From a virus, in the IMG/VR virus record IMGVR_UViG_3300046323_000362, positions 1 through 42,954 of that record: a DNA stretch of 42,954 nucleotides, one strand, 5' to 3'. The position numbers were made by a program, and so were the translations under genes. Positions 7,139 through 42,954 of this stretch are shown in pieces. Within the stretch, counting starts at the first letter, position 1. Each line of letters opens with the position of its first letter. The notes below the pieces were generated by a model. The model saw only the letters and a program-made list of their open reading frames with translations. It had not been told where the DNA came from and ran no database searches.

Positions 7139-10100
7139 ATGCAAGAAGATAAATTATTAGATTTTAAAAACCAAGAGATTGGCTTTTTAGTAGAGGATAT
7201 AAGAGATAAGAATAGAGAAAAAGCATTATCAGTAGTAGCACCTATTGATGATGCTTTAGCTAATCTTGGAGCAATGGGCAAGTTGCCAAAACAAGCTCCA
7301 GGAACTTCTTTAGATTCTATGATAGCCTCTGCTACAAACAAACCAAAAATGGTAGACTACTCAAACGTAAAGTATGAGGATGTTTATAGTAAATATAGTG
7401 ATGGGACTTTTACTCCGAGATACGACCAGTACTCTACAGTAAACCTTGATCAGGAAGAGGTTGCAGCAAGCAGACAATCTTCTGGGGATATTTGGGCAAA
7501 TGCATTACCTAAATTTACAGGTAAGCTATTGACAAATACTATAGGCCAATTAGGTGGAATCTTCTATGGCATAGGAGCAGCAGTTAATACAGGTAGTATG
7601 CAGTCTATATATGACAACTCCTTTATGGATGCAGTCAATGACGCAAATACCTTTATGGATAACAAGCTTCCAACATATAAATCAAAAGCAGACAGAGAAG
7701 CAACAGGATTAGATTATTTGACTAAGCAAACAACTTGGGCAGATGATTTCTTGAATGGTACAGCCTTTTTTGGAGGAGCTATATTATCTGAGGCTGCTAT
7801 AGAGTGGGCTACAGGTGGTGCGGCATCAAGTACAGCATTAGCTAGATGGGGAGCTAAGTTAGAACAACTACCAGGATTTGCTAAGACTTTGAATGCAGCT
7901 AGAAAGGCTTCTAACCCTGCATCTAAAGCTTTTGCAACAGGTAAATTATCCACAGGACTAGCTACAAATTTAGGTAAGACAGGTGAATTACTTCATACAA
8001 TAAGATTTACAGCAACAAGTGCCGGATACGAATCTGCATTTGAGGCTAATGCTTATATGAAAGAATCTGAAGCTAATTACTACAATTCTTTCCAAGAAGC
8101 TAATGGTAGAATGCCTACAGCAGAAGAAGAAATGGATTTCAGAAGAAACCTAAAGACATCTGCTGATGGATTATTTGGCTTCAATATGGCGATAGTTGGA
8201 TCATCTAACTTAGCTATAATGGGAAAATGGTTTGACGTAAAAAGCCCCCTAACAGCACCAAGCAAATGGGCCAACTCTAAATTATTTGGGGTAGGTTACA
8301 AAAAAGTAGGTGATGAAGTAGTAGAGATAACAGGTAACAAACTTCAAAAAGCTTTAGGTAAAAGCTACGGCTTTGCTAAACCTATGTTTGTTGAAGGTGT
8401 CTGGGAAGAGGGTATGCAATCTGTTGGTACTAATACTGCCAGTAATTGGGTACAAGCTAAATACGATCCAAAATATACAAAAAATACATATGACTTAGTA
8501 GACTCTTTTTCAGACGGACTTGCCGAAACTTACGGTACAGCAGAAGGTTGGAAAGAGATACAAATGGGTATGCTTATTGGTTTATTAGGTGGAGCTGCAG
8601 GTAACAAGTACAGCACTGGGAAATTTAACCCAGAGTACTCACAAGCAGTAGCTAAAAATAAACTTACTGTAGATACCATGAATGCCTATTCTGGTAAAAG
8701 AGTTGCTGAAACTATGGCTTATGCAAACCGTGTACAAAGTGCAAACGAGGCATCAGAACAAGCACAAGCAGCAGGAGATTTTACAGGGTCAGAATTAGCA
8801 AGACAATCAGCAGCTTTAGCTCAATTAAACTTTGCATACAACCTTGACTACATGGATGATGCAATGGAGAATACTATAACATCTATCAGAAACATAGATA
8901 ATCAGTCTTTGATGACTGAGTATGGTGTAGATGAGAAATCTGCAGAAGACATGAAAGCAAAAATGATCGAGGAGTACAAAGGTACTGCAGAATCATACAA
9001 AAAGAATAGAGACTTTGCTGAGTACTTCATAGGTAATAAATTATCTTCAGAAGAAAAAGCATTGTTACAAAAACATGATGTAAACTCTTTAAAAGAAGCT
9101 TTAGCTTACGAGCTTACATTAGGTGAAAAAGCAGATAAATTTTCTAAAGATATCTTACAAGCTATCAAAGAAAAAGTTGGTACAACAGTGGCAGGGCAAG
9201 AGGTTTCTGATGCTATGACTATAGATGATGTACTGACTAAAGCCGGAAAACAAACAAAAAAAGAAGGTGAAAGAAAAGTATCTGAAATAACAAAGCTTAA
9301 AGCAAAAGTTACAGCCTTAGAAGAAGAGTACAAAAAAGTACAAAACACTTTTTATAACTCAGTTTCAGAAGAAGAGAAAAAGACATTGCTAGGAAAACTA
9401 GACAGCATAACTTCTCAAAAGCAAGAGGCAGAAACTAAAAGAGCTGAATTAGCAAAAGAATACGAAGCATTGTTTACTGCTGCTAAAATGAAAAACCCTT
9501 TCAGTAAGGACGGATCTAGTATTGTTATAACAGCAGCAAAACTTGATGTTTTAAGAGAACAAGCAGGAAATGTTAAATCAATAATTTCAGAATACCAAAA
9601 AGCTAACCCACAAGAGTCAGCTCAGTTAGAGAAGTTAGTTGAAGAGTATGGTAGATCATTGGATGCATTCCAAAAGTATGCAGATTTAGCTAGACAAATA
9701 ACTGACCCTAGCTTAGGGTTAAGAGGTAAAAGAAACTTTATTTCTGAGATAAAAAGAGACAAGTCTCCTAATGAAGTGACTGTTGAAATGCTTGAGACAC
9801 TTTCTGGACGTATGGCACAAGCTACAGAGCAAGTAACTCAAGCCACAATAGAGGGTAATGAAAGAGTAAAATCGGCAGTAGAAGAAGCAGAAGCTAAGAA
9901 AAAAGGAGCTACTATAGATAAACCTACAGCAGAACAAAAGCTAAACAAAAAGCAGAAAGAGATTGATAAAGTAAACGAAGAGTATAACTCTGAACCAATA
10001 GGTTCAAAAGCTATAACAGATACTATATCAAAACTAGCAGAGGATAACTACCTATTTACACATGTTACAAGTGAGCAAGAAGCTAAGAACATATTAGCTA

Positions 10101-28328: not shown

Positions 28329-30272
28329 TTAATGTACTGCTGCATAAGACTCCCCTGTTTGGATATCAATCTCAATTTCTACAGGAAAGTTGTATTGTTT
28401 ATTTACTCTATTTATAGACTGTTTAAGAGCCTCAATTGTTGAATCTATGTCTTCGTTCTTAACTCTTAATAAAACCTCGTCATGGGCTTGAAAAATGGGT
28501 CTAACACCACGTTTAATCATTTCATACACATAACCATCAAAGACTCTAACACCTGCTGACTGATTACAAGCAGAAAATCTATCTTTTTCAGAGGCTAAAA
28601 AGTAGTAAAAGTTTGTAATAGGGTTCCAAATCCAAGTTTTACCATCTACAACTATTACCTCTCTGTCTTCTGCATATTTCTTAACAGACCAGTTACGACC
28701 CCAATACCCATCGTATAAAATCTTAGCATCTTTTGTAGTAAGACCAGTAGACTCTTTAAGCTTAGGTACTCCACAACCATAAGTTAAAGCATAGTTACCT
28801 GTTTTAGAAGTTGCTCTTTTTTTACTTACTTTTTCAAATTGCTCAGACAACTCTTCATCTTTATAAACCTTGAATATCTCAGGTAAGTCTTCTCTCTTTT
28901 TATCTTTTGTTTTATACCAACGAAAGAAGTCAGACTCTTCTTGTGAGATAATACCACTTCTAACACCTAGATCCAAGTGGGCATCCCAACCCGGCCTGTT
29001 CATATCTTCAACATATCCAGGATCATAAGGATAAATAGAAATCTGTTTCATCTTGTCTTCCAAACTACTAACATCCGAACCAATAAGCACAGAACCTTTA
29101 GGAGCTATGATTACACTACGGATAAATTCTCCATAAGGGGCTGTCGGCTTTGGTAAATTAACAAACGGTTTGGCATGTTTCAACCTCAAAGTCTTAGTAA
29201 AACCGTGAGCATAAGCTACTGCATAACCATTCTCATCAGCTCTTTCTAAGAAGCCCTTCAAGTAACCTGCTCTGTGTGTTACTACAGATAAACCATCTAA
29301 GTGCTCAATAGCCGGCTCCTTTGCACCTAAAGCTAATACACTCTTACATAACATCTTTTCTTTATCTCTAACTTGTGGCACTTTACCATTTCTACCGTCT
29401 TCAAACAATAAAGGTTTCCAACCAAGGCCCATCAACCAATCTTTTACTTGTGTAGGACTTCCGGCATTAGGTTCTTCATAACCTGTAATCATGGTAACCT
29501 CACCATCATAATCTTCTCTGATACCATTTTGTTCTAAGATCTCAAACCATCTAGCTCCGGCAACACTAAGACTACCATCTTTTTTATAACAAACCTTAGG
29601 CTTTGTCAAAGACTTCTTGATAGGTATTTTTGGCATAGCAGCTTCTAATAAAGCTTTCTTTTCATTCTCAATACCTTGTAGATAGTCTAAGTTTTTTTGA
29701 CATTGTTCTACATCAATCAATATTTTATCTTCCTCTTGTATCTTAAGGCATGTTAGCTTAAAATTAAGGTAGCTGATAATTCTTACTATATCTCTAGGAT
29801 CTTGGTAGATCTTTTTAAGATAGTTGTATTGTTTAACCCAAAGGTTAGTATTAATCTTAACATCTTCTTCTACCCTGTTTCTGTATTCTTCTATAGAAAG
29901 GTTTTCCCAGTTGTCGATCTTCGGTTTAGGTACACCGAACTCTTCTCCCCAAGAAGCTAAACCATGGTCTCTTTGGCCTCTTTCTGGGTACAAGTACCAA
30001 GACAATCCTAAAGAGTCTATTACACTAGCTGTAACTTTTATACCAAGTATCTTTTCATACAAGGGTACATCAAACCTAACTATGTTATGGCAGACCAATG
30101 TGTTGTCAGGGTTAGTCAAGATATTACGCATATCCTCATAGTCAACAGTAGATTTAACTTTCCACTTACCAGACTTATCCATCCAACTTATTCCCATACA
30201 CCAGATCTTTGTAGACTGATCTACAAGTCCATCTGACTCTGCATCTATTACGTATATCTTATCTAAATTCAT
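28329..30272 (-). CDS. Family A DNA polymerase with 3'-5' exonuclease, T7-like
   Basis: 647 residues. The N-terminal proofreading exonuclease has Exo I with D10 and E12 (VIDAESDGL), Exo II around LVCHNIVRFDVPL and Exo III EEYRNRVEEDVKIN. There is no 5' nuclease domain. The polymerase domain has motif A SDVSSLEDK (D400, E405; the usual Arg is Lys407), motif B RATSKTGNYALTYG and motif C HDE at 597-599. Length and order fit T7-like replicative polymerases. It follows an HNH endonuclease gene by 1 bp and precedes the L,D-transpeptidase. It would copy the phage genome together with the helicase encoded upstream; any accessory processivity factor is not visible. The unit is expressed from the promoter at 31424-31455. 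Confidence 0.95.
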   Translation of the reverse strand: MNLDKIYVIDAESDGLVDQSTKIWCMGISWMDKSGKWKVKSTVDYEDMRNILTNPDNTLVCHNIVRFDVPLYEKILGIKVTASVIDSLGLSWYLYPERGQRDHGLASWGEEFGVPKPKIDNWENLSIEEYRNRVEEDVKINTNLWVKQYNYLKKIYQDPRDIVRIISYLNFKLTCLKIQEEDKILIDVEQCQKNLDYLQGIENEKKALLEAAMPKIPIKKSLTKPKVCYKKDGSLSVAGARWFEILEQNGIREDYDGEVTMITGYEEPNAGSPTQVKDWLMGLGWKPLLFEDGRNGKVPQVRDKEKMLCKSVLALGAKEPAIEHLDGLSVVTHRAGYLKGFLERADENGYAVAYAHGFTKTLRLKHAKPFVNLPKPTAPYGEFIRSVIIAPKGSVLIGSDVSSLEDKMKQISIYPYDPGYVEDMNRPGWDAHLDLGVRSGIISQEESDFFRWYKTKDKKREDLPEIFKVYKDEELSEQFEKVSKKRATSKTGNYALTYGCGVPKLKESTGLTTKDAKILYDGYWGRNWSVKKYAEDREVIVVDGKTWIWNPITNFYYFLASEKDRFSACNQSAGVRVFDGYVYEMIKRGVRPIFQAHDEVLLRVKNEDIDSTIEALKQSINRVNKQYNFPVEIEIDIQTGESYAAVH

Positions 30273-30273
30273 A

Positions 30274-30762
30274 TTATTTTGTTATTTTTGCTAATTCCTC
30301 TTCGTATGCGTAGTGAGCATCTAGCTCTGTAGTAAACCTTCCTAAATACTTAACTCTTCCACAAATAGAAATACGTGACACCCACTTACGTGAAGCTTTA
30401 TTCCAATAAACACCTGTGTACTTACTTGTAGAAGGTAAGTGTTTTTTATTAGCATTTTCTCTAAATGATATTACCTCTAAATTTACCGATCTATTATCAA
30501 GTCTATCAAAATTAATATGGTTTACAACTGTAATACGACCATTTGGTACATGCCCTAAAAAAGCACTTGCTACTAAGATATGAACACTATAACTCTTCAT
30601 TTTTTTATCATTCCATAAGTTAACAATTAAGTACTTATTTGAGCTAAGACTTTGTTTCATTATCTTAACCTTACCAAACCTAAGACTTCTAACTCTACCT
30701 AAATCTGAGACTTCATAAAAACCCTCATAATCTTTTACTGGCAACCAATTTTCTACTATCAT
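30274..30762 (-). CDS. HNH homing endonuclease (NUMOD4, HNH, AP2-like)
   Basis: 162 residues. NUMOD4-type N-terminus (about 4-55) with DYEGFYEVSDLGRVRSL. HNH catalytic part with H61 (SVHILVASAFL) and NHINFDRLDNRSVNLE (about 81-96). C-terminal AP2-like DNA-binding part (about 112-155) with SKYTGVYWNKASRKW and YLGRFTTELDAHYAYEE. This order is typical of free-standing phage homing endonucleases. Its start overlaps the preceding stop (TAATG) and it ends 1 bp before the polymerase gene, so it was inserted without disrupting either gene. It may target a polymerase gene or nearby DNA of related phages (inference). Confidence 0.92.
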   Translation of the reverse strand: MIVENWLPVKDYEGFYEVSDLGRVRSLRFGKVKIMKQSLSSNKYLIVNLWNDKKMKSYSVHILVASAFLGHVPNGRITVVNHINFDRLDNRSVNLEVISFRENANKKHLPSTSKYTGVYWNKASRKWVSRISICGRVKYLGRFTTELDAHYAYEEELAKITK

Positions 30763-31423: not shown

Positions 31424-31455
31424 CAAAGATACGAACAACATTTTAATCTCACAAG
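31424..31455 (-). promoter_or_regulatory. Leftward promoter of the polymerase unit
   Basis: Minus strand: CTTG (31452-31455), 20 bp, TATCTTTG (31424-31431) followed by CAT. It is 25 nt upstream of the first start codon. The TGTTCA array begins 22 bp upstream of the -33 element. Confidence 0.8.
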
Positions 31456-31477: not shown

Positions 31478-31548
31478 TGTTCATTAAAATTGTTTGTTCA
31501 TTGTGACTGAACGTTCACGTTTGCGTGAACAGTGTAAAAAAGTGAACA
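31478..31548. promoter_or_regulatory. Symmetric TGTTCA/TGAACA array: candidate operator or origin
   Basis: TGTTCA at 31478-31483 and 31495-31500, a 10-bp palindrome TGAACGTTCA at 31508-31517, and TGAACA at 31526-31531 and 31543-31548. The two outer pairs have the same 17-bp period and the whole array is mirror-symmetric about position 31513. A further hairpin (GTTCACG-TTTG-CGTGAAC, 31513-31530) spans its centre. It lies between the helicase terminator and the polymerase promoter, next to AT-rich DNA. Confidence 0.7.
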
Positions 31549-31549
31549 T

Positions 31550-31579
31550 AAAAAAACCCAACTAAATTAATAGCTGGGT
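31550..31579 (-). terminator. Terminator of the helicase unit
   Basis: Minus strand: 9-bp stem (31571-31579 with 31556-31564, one G-U pair), 6-nt loop, then a T-run (31550-31556 as A on the plus strand). It begins 7 bp after the helicase stop. Confidence 0.82.
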
Positions 31580-31585
31580 GTAATT

Positions 31586-32749
31586 TTAAAATGGTGCATC
31601 TTCATCATCTTCTCCGAAGTCTACTGCTGCTGGGCTACTAAACGTTTCACCAAAGGCATCAGCAAGTGTAGCTAAAGGTGGTGGAGGTAAAGGCTTCTCA
31701 ACAACATAAGGCTCTTCCTTTTTAAACATAGGCACTTCTATTGTTTTAGGAGAAGACATATCTTTGTGTCTGTTCTTTCTTATATTTTCAACATCCGGTA
31801 TGTTTAACTCTTCTGCATAAATATCTAGGTACATACCATCGGCCTCTCTACATTTTAATAAGTGTACATAGTTTACACCAAAAGGTTCTAAAGAAACTCT
31901 ACCTTTCAAATCCTCTTCTAAAAAGAACTTCTGTAAGTTTGGATATCTTTCCGGATCCACTTTACTGTACTCCTTGATACCAAGTCTGGTAGGGTTAGTC
32001 ATAACAGCTACAAAGTCTGCAACTTGGAAAGTAAACTGAGAGTAATACAAATCTGAAGGTTGAGGTTGAGCCATGATATCTTTATCTTTAGCTCTTTTAA
32101 TCATCTCAGAGTTTGTTTGGGACAGCAATATAAAAATTACATTCTCATACTCCATCTTTAAGTCATTCACTCTCTCGATAAACTTCTCAATAATAGTATT
32201 TCTACTTTCTCCCGAATCACCAGAAATCAATGCCAAGTGATCGACAGTAATAACAACAGAGTCTTTGTCTTTATTCAATTCTAAGAACTCTTTACAGCCC
32301 TCATAAAACTTGTTTGGTGTGGTAGGTACTTGTGAAATGCTAACTCTATCATCTTGCAAAGAGTCAAAATAAGCTTTAGCTTGAACTTTCTCTTCTTCTG
32401 TAAACTCTTGTAACAAGATCTCTTTCTTAGACTTAGATTTAATATTCTTGGCCATACCACGAAGAACTAAACTAAGAACTCTCATCTCAAGGGATATGTT
32501 AAGTACTGCAAAATTGTCAGAGGTAGGGTTTATTTCTTTATTCAAGATGTTATCTACCATCTTAGCCAAAGTATAACTCTTACCAATACCTGAACCTGCT
32601 GAAAATACAATTACTGAACCATTAACTACAGGGAACACATCATCAAAATAAGGTAGTCCTGTTTTTATAATACCTTTGTTACCAATTTGGTATTGCTTAA
32701 TCTCTTGAAAAGCTTTTTTAGTAAGGTCTCTAAATTTTTGTATTTGCAT
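31586..32749 (-). CDS. DnaB-like replicative helicase with acidic C-terminal tail
   Basis: 387 residues. RecA-type ATPase core: Walker A GSGIGKS at 52-58 (Lys57), LGI-type strand VVITVDHLALISG as Walker B, and FILLSQTNSEM as the H3/Q-loop region. It corresponds to the ATPase part of DnaB; the N-terminal primase-binding domain is missing. The last 40 residues are a Pro-rich linker (PLPPPPLA) and an acidic end FGEDDEDAPF, resembling the SSB C-terminal peptide and the acidic Phe-ended tail of T7 gp4. Preceded with 1 bp gap by a protein of unknown function and followed by a terminator. It would unwind the replication fork for the family A polymerase. Family certain; the role of the tail is inferred. 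Confidence 0.9.
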   Translation of the reverse strand: MQIQKFRDLTKKAFQEIKQYQIGNKGIIKTGLPYFDDVFPVVNGSVIVFSAGSGIGKSYTLAKMVDNILNKEINPTSDNFAVLNISLEMRVLSLVLRGMAKNIKSKSKKEILLQEFTEEEKVQAKAYFDSLQDDRVSISQVPTTPNKFYEGCKEFLELNKDKDSVVITVDHLALISGDSGESRNTIIEKFIERVNDLKMEYENVIFILLSQTNSEMIKRAKDKDIMAQPQPSDLYYSQFTFQVADFVAVMTNPTRLGIKEYSKVDPERYPNLQKFFLEEDLKGRVSLEPFGVNYVHLLKCREADGMYLDIYAEELNIPDVENIRKNRHKDMSSPKTIEVPMFKKEEPYVVEKPLPPPPLATLADAFGETFSSPAAVDFGEDDEDAPF

Positions 32750-42449: not shown

Positions 42450-42954
42450 TTAGCCTTCACAGCTAGAACACTCCATAAGGTTTCTACTAACCTCTTGTGC
42501 CATATTAACACTTCTTTGGTAGTATAAAGTTTTAATTCCTAGGTTCCATGCTTCAAAAAACAAAGCATTCACATCTTTCAAAGATGTCTCAGGGTGTATC
42601 ATTAAATTCAATGACTGACCTTGATCTATAAACTTCTGTCTCTGAGCAGCTTGTTGAACTATCTCTAGTTGGCTGATCTCTCCAAAAGTCTTGAATACAA
42701 ACTTTTCTTTTTCGTCTAAGATATCTAAGTGTTGTACAGAACCTCCTTTTAAAAGGATGCTGTTCCAAACCTCTGGTGTATCTTGATCTTTATCTTTTAA
42801 TAACTTTTTTAAGTAAGGGTTTCTGTAAACAAACTTACCTTTGGCCAAATCTTTAATGAAATAGTTTGATTGTAATGGCTCAATACTAGGGCTAACTTGT
42901 CCTAGAATAAAAGAAGAACTAGTCGTAGGGGCAATTGCCAATCTAGTAGTAAAT
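42450..42954 (-). CDS. Ribonucleotide reductase large subunit, C-terminal part
   Basis: The gene runs in from the right edge; 167 C-terminal residues are visible and the 5' end is outside. LAIAPTTSSSF and QVSPSIEPL belong to the conserved nucleotide-reductase core, and the chain ends CSSCEG, the flexible C-terminal Cys pair that re-reduces the active site of class I and II reductases. It converts ribonucleotides to deoxyribonucleotides. Class I is more likely from the strand layout, but a small subunit is not in view. A hairpin terminator follows. It fits the phage's dNTP supply set. Confidence 0.92.
   Translation of the reverse strand, partial: FTTRLAIAPTTSSSFILGQVSPSIEPLQSNYFIKDLAKGKFVYRNPYLKKLLKDKDQDTPEVWNSILLKGGSVQHLDILDEKEKFVFKTFGEISQLEIVQQAAQRQKFIDQGQSLNLMIHPETSLKDVNALFFEAWNLGIKTLYYQRSVNMAQEVSRNLMECSSCEG

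Follow-up and report, generated by a model that had tools for sequence, protein, structure and literature searches.

What does a mirror-symmetric array of short half-sites do between the helicase and polymerase units of a phage? The locus lies in the IMG/VR phage record IMGVR_UViG_3300046323_000362, the whole 42,954 bp of which were analysed and are referred to here as the window; the record is a fragment, as it ends inside a ribonucleotide reductase large-subunit gene (42450-42941). A preliminary description of the sequence had offered two readings of the array, an operator for a dimeric regulator or the iterons of a replication origin. The comparisons presented below lead us to lean, on balance, towards an AbiEi-type operator whose most likely role is that of a decoy for the AbiEi antitoxin-repressor.

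The array and its surroundings

The six half-sites of the preliminary description are all found in the sequence, with GTTCA at 31479, 31496 and 31513 and TGAAC at 31508, 31526 and 31543, and the same is true of the 17-bp period of the outer pairs, the symmetry about 31513 (the centre falls at 31512.5-31513), and the 7-bp inverted repeat with a TTTG loop, which coincides with one of the dyads listed in Table 1. These half-sites are packed within about 69-71 bp, compared with a maximum of four in 300 dinucleotide shuffles of the whole window, and the word TGTTCA is not enriched window-wide (26 observed versus 30 expected). Two dyads, GTTCA-N7-TGAAC (17 bp) and GTTCA-N8-TGAAC (18 bp), abut each other in the array, with a lone half-site on each side 17 bp outside the dyads, and on the minus strand the array reads >0 >17 <30 >35 <47 <64.

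The proposed placement between the helicase terminator and the polymerase-unit promoter also held, both signals being present. The promoter elements are TTG at 31452-31454 and, after 20 nt, TAtcTTTG at 31424-31431 on the minus strand, and the array is wholly upstream of this core promoter without overlapping it. Further along, an HNH endonuclease gene (30274-30762) separates the DNA polymerase gene from the small polymerase-unit genes, an arrangement as in homing endonuclease insertions. A structured RNA was rejected as a reading of the array, as an Rfam search of the region matched no family and the sole match was sub-threshold (E=0.14) and lay over the terminator. Folding of the array as DNA gave a cruciform-like structure (z -2.6), which is expected from the dyads and was not counted as evidence.

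Table 1. Features of the array and of the neighbouring genes and signals (window coordinates)
Feature	Coordinates	Strand	Remarks
DNA polymerase gene	28329..30272	-	PHROG 17, E=4e-83
First polymerase-unit gene, 89 aa	31130..31399	-	without family match
Bacteroidota-type promoter of the polymerase unit (TTG - 20 nt - TAtcTTTG)	31424..31454	-	kept in relatives with and without the array
Whole array	31478..31548	.	two full dyads and one lone half-site per side; from sequence and shuffle test
Outer half-site GTTCA	31479..31483	+	17 bp to next half-site
Second four-half-site operator (0, 18, 30, 47)	31479..31530	-	interlocked; shares half-sites with the operator at 31496..31547
17-bp dyad GTTCA-TTGTGAC-TGAAC, N7 spacer	31496..31512	.	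spacing standard in host AbiEi_2 operators
Complete four-half-site operator >0 >17 <30 <47	31496..31547	-	geometry identical to AbiEi_2 operator of host locus L121
18-bp dyad GTTCACG-TTTG-CGTGAAC, N8 spacer	31513..31530	.	geometry shared by about 22 distinct phage arrays and host AbiEi_2 operator L121
Outer half-site (GTTCA on the minus strand)	31543..31547	-	17 bp to next; missing in L008 and L010
Intrinsic terminator of the helicase unit	31556..31579	-	array begins right after it in transcription order; kept whether or not a relative has the array
DnaB-like replicative helicase gene, upstream of the array	31586..32749	-	PHROG 37407, E=3e-75

The same design at bacterial abiE loci

AbiEi_2 genes, chosen independently of the motif, were found in 48 of 395 Bacteroidota genomes. 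Among the 32 such loci that were read, 24 have a mirror-symmetric array at the gene start (>0 >17 <29 <46 or a one-step 1-bp variant) and in four more GTTCA/TGAAC pairs are set further apart; the gene that follows AbiEi_2, usually overlapping it, matched AbiEii in six of eight cases tested. A blind search of the same 395 genomes with the four-half-site pattern matched 35, with none for a reversed-pattern control among the genomes listed, and 22 of the 30 arrays fetched adjoin an AbiEi_2 gene. Some of the remaining arrays are near AbiEi_3-AbiEii or AbiEii-DUF6088 genes, and others are beside BREX/HipAB, Sa_NUDIX or HNH genes. The design is present at AbiEi_2 genes of Mycobacterium, Cellulomonas, Thalassolituus, and Marixanthomonas, and spans Bacteroidota, actinobacteria, and gammaproteobacteria (Oceanospirillales), and a scan of 84,980 genomes for the double-dyad array returned 20 stretches, mostly of 17+17 geometry.

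These abiE operators share with the phage array the half-sites, the 17-bp period, and the mirror symmetry, and that of host locus L121 has the same 18-bp inner dyad as the window. The window array follows the lattice of AbiEi_2 operators (its GTTCA/TGAAC half-sites keep to a 17-bp lattice and the inner spacer is 7-8 bp long), and we regard it with high confidence as identical in design to AbiE operators. It differs from them in having no abiE genes beside it and in being a double, interlocked version. As its neighbours are the helicase gene and the 89-aa gene that lacks a family match, and as whole-record searches of 27 virus records, array-bearing or related, found no AbiEi_2, it is an orphan operator-like array and not an abiE operator in place.

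Several bacterial loci depart from the common pattern. At L115, L116, L119, and L120 a second type of operator is found upstream of AbiEi_2, in which wider-spaced GTTCA...TGAAC pairs straddle the promoter and do not follow the 17-bp lattice, and at L113 the half-site is a variant, GTCCA/TGGAC. Some abiE operons are flanked by arrays at either end (L247:5980-6031 and 7874-7925; L246:5611-5662 and 7493-7544), and that of L247 is bracketed by its own operator, since its two arrays are similar inverted copies. Elsewhere, Bacteroidota arrays with no AbiEi_2 nearby are found beside defence-type genes (L301:7082-8002, L302:6718-7638, L295:9001-9846, and L296:7103-8801), which encode an HNH_2 nuclease, a Sa_NUDIX effector, HipA/HTH, and BrxA; defence islands may be under the control of AbiEi-like regulators or may titrate them.

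AbiEi represses its own promoter by way of inverted repeats, and its C-terminal domain alone is antitoxic; in Streptococcus agalactiae it binds two 23-bp repeats starting TGTTGCTTTTA, a sequence unlike the GTTCA arrays (PMC3985639), which counts against the AbiEi reading. The Rv2827c-type antitoxin of Mycobacterium tuberculosis binds four promoter repeats at graded affinity, and the Rv2827c-Rv2826c promoter resembles the phage array, by description and not by sequence, in being a multi-site operator at which several copies of an AbiEi-like repressor bind; its repeats, however, are 23 bp long with gaps of 13 and 4 bp, and it is chromosomal and beside its own genes (PMC7319586). By extension from these precedents AbiEi_2 should bind the phage array, and the position of the arrays at AbiEi_2 genes argues strongly for such binding. 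No solved structure matches an AbiEi_2 protein by sequence.

Orphan arrays across viruses

The double dyad GTTCA-N7/8-TGAAC-GTTCA-N7/8-TGAAC was found in 48 IMG/VR stretches, most of them 18+17, and these yielded 23 distinct 18+17 sequences, including one coincidental tandem repeat (L067). The four-half-site AbiE pattern matched at least 120 IMG/VR stretches, and an off-register control with the same half-sites and each spacing enlarged by 3 bp matched none; removal of near-duplicates left about 107 distinct arrays in the IMG/VR loci examined, some of whose contigs may be host fragments. BLAST searches of the consensus array against INPHARED phages and PLSDB plasmids returned chance matches only, and the named isolates discussed below were reached via IMG/VR loci.

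AbiEi_2 is encoded in one of the 115 viral flanks that were fetched, and AbiEii in none of them. The view that the arrays are scars of lost abiE operons is disfavoured, as a scan of the viral contigs for AbiEi_2, which used a single degenerate pattern of low sensitivity, found one gene. Host AbiE operators are located at gene starts, whereas the viral arrays occupy arbitrary intergenic positions: according to simple ORF calls, the nearest flank of the 78 distinct arrays that could be placed is a gene end in 52 and a gene start in 26, with 16 arrays between convergent genes and 13 between divergent ones. Their contexts include a tRNA cluster (L061), regions of structural genes for tail and capsid, and others.

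The consensus sequences of host and viral arrays agree beyond the half-sites, including the flanking AT steps. Arrays of different phages have the half-sites and the spacing in common and differ in their spacers. Spacer matching between phage and host exceeded that of column shuffles; palindromic spacers confound this test, and we do not build on it. In one Chitinophagaceae MAG the same 17-bp dyad, GTTCACGGGCAGTGAAC, occurs in a phage-like array (L062) and in a chromosomal AbiEi_2 operator (L097).

Gain, loss, and constraint

Twelve helicase relatives of the window (L001-L012) were compared, most of which keep the terminator and the promoter. Only the near-identical L001-L003, together with L008 and L010, carry the array, and it is cleanly absent between conserved flanks in L004, L005, L006, L007, and L012; L009 stops too early to be scored and the intergenic region of L011 differs. 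The helicases of L006 and L007, which lack the array, are 98% identical to those of L008 and L010, which have it, and the gain or loss is therefore recent. The full array also occupies this slot in a distant relative, L032 (38% helicase identity), and between L032 and the window none of 30 half-site positions has changed, compared with 14 of 39 spacer positions (Fisher p=1.3e-4). The array of the window can thus be dispensed with, behaves as a discrete unit, and is under constraint at its half-sites.

A similar picture emerges from cultivated phages. Mycobacterium phage Alvin (NC_026583.1) carries an array (L178:6819-6868; also L386) between genes 28 and 29 (minor tail), and alignment with Bxb1, Pinto, and Seabiscuit reveals it as an exact 57-bp insertion in Alvin without a target-site duplication. 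Of the 251 records matched by the Alvin array region, only 19 align over most of the query sequence. The inner dyad of the AbiE-type array in Alvin and in a minority of its relatives, GTTCAGTTTTACTGAAC, is one base off a dyad, GTTCAGTTTTAGTGAAC, in the AbiEi_2 locus L394. In Gordonia phage Bantam the array is between the protease and scaffold genes.

Among freshwater relatives of the viral locus L014 the corresponding slot holds a GTTCA array in two of 79 comparable cases, and otherwise other palindromic modules or nothing. In these phages (L305-L384) the modules are swapped in a slot that lies about 60-215 bp after the structural gene, and take the form of AGTAAAG-N6-CTTTACT pairs about 33 bp apart, GTTATAAC repeats, TGTCAC...GTGACA, or none. 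A second motif of the freshwater slot, AGTAAAG...CTTTAC, is essentially absent from 198 Bacteroidota genomes. The slot suggests a cassette locus that may hold decoys for several different regulators.

A proposed decoy for an antitoxin-repressor

The earlier suggestion of an operator for a dimeric regulator stands in so far as the array has the design of an AbiEi operator; the regulator itself was found neither in the 27 virus records nor, as an AbiEi-type protein, among the window proteins scanned. The array is for this reason probably aimed at a regulator of the host or of a prophage, and because the phage has the operator but, in the known sequence, not the regulator, a decoy is the most likely function, a hypothesis to which we give somewhat better than even chances. 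The more than one hundred other viral sequences with a gene-less array likewise suggest that phages soak up a bacterial control protein.

Under this hypothesis, dimers of AbiEi (AbiEi_2, PF09952, and probably related AbiEi families) would bind the abutting 17/18-bp dyads and the outward half-sites cooperatively, a mode of binding that we infer from the position of the arrays. In the host or in a resident prophage, AbiEi normally keeps the promoter of its own abiE toxin-antitoxin operon repressed, and as phage DNA replicates the copies of the array would titrate AbiEi off that promoter. The likeliest benefit would be that the derepressed abiE operon supplies fresh antitoxin during phage takeover and the AbiEii toxin is not released. 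Both the titration and the direction of the benefit are hypothetical: the advantage of a decoy is not obvious, since titration would raise the toxin along with the antitoxin, and on paper the opposite outcome, release of the toxin, may follow instead.

Titration by free operators has familiar parallels, in that lac or lambda operators on multicopy plasmids titrate their repressor and thereby induce its target. The likeness is that free operators compete for a repressor; those cases, however, are laboratory constructs or involve the phage's own repressor, whereas the phage array has the operator design of a host toxin-antitoxin system. DNA-mimic proteins such as Ocr sequester a defence component, and Acb4 is reported as a sponge anti-defence protein (PMC11722364). 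The resemblance lies in the sequestering of a defence component and the difference in the agent, a protein in these cases as opposed to DNA sequence alone. In the literature searched, no operator decoys against toxin-antitoxin systems were found. Whether many phage lineages carry DNA-only anti-defence decoys, that is AbiE-operator cassettes of about 50-70 bp in arbitrary intergenic slots that titrate an antitoxin-repressor, is in our estimation an evenly balanced question.

Alternative readings

It is possible, if unlikely, that the array is a hijacked operator by which host AbiEi represses or activates the phage polymerase-unit promoter, such that the replication genes respond to the state of AbiE. 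In the window clade, including L008, L010, and L032, the array, where present, is always about 22 bp upstream of this promoter, so a regulatory role there is possible, and a predicted gene start is at most 30 bp away in 26 of the 78 placeable viral arrays. Against this, the promoter persists in the array-less L004-L007 and L012, arrays elsewhere follow stop codons, separate convergent genes, or lie within a tRNA cluster, and host AbiE operators directly adjoin the start of their target gene, whereas the window array does not reach into the core promoter at all.

The array could also be the site of some other DNA-binding protein, of phage or host, that recognises a GTTCA half-site without involvement of AbiEi. 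Some host arrays that have BREX/HipAB, HNH, and Sa_NUDIX genes as neighbours, and no recognised AbiEi close by, would fit such a protein, but the exact lattice, down to the flanking AT steps, fits AbiEi_2 operators, and when the proteins near 18 array groups were compared all against all, no family was shared by every group, which speaks against a phage-encoded binding protein common to the array loci; we consider this reading improbable.

Movement of the array as a tiny MITE-like element by a transposase or recombinase would account for its clean presence or absence in mycobacteriophages and its clean absence in relatives of the window, and calls to mind the abiE operons with arrays at both ends, inverted in L247. 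It is nevertheless very improbable, given the missing target-site duplication between Alvin and Bxb1, the constraint on the half-sites, and the fact that different phages share half-sites and spacing but no copied sequence.

A replication origin with iterons, for which the position between the helicase and polymerase units, the AT-rich flank, and the palindromes had spoken, is hardly credible: close relatives with the same terminator, promoter, and gene order have no repeats, an observation that the preliminary description had itself named as contrary evidence and that tells against a core replication role, the GC-skew switch it had proposed to look for is missing at 31.5 kb, the skew being negative on both sides, and arrays occur in many non-replication contexts such as tail and capsid genes and a tRNA cluster.

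Implications

We return, then, to the AbiEi decoy and to how phages trigger or silence AbiE, which to our knowledge is an open question. Isolates in hand are suited to testing it, with Alvin carrying the array and Bxb1, Pinto, and Seabiscuit having the same slot without it, and the sequence rule of half-site and 17-bp lattice finds candidates in any phage genome. If the decoy reading is true, the arrays would represent a form of counter-defence that needs no gene and is invisible to gene-based annotation.
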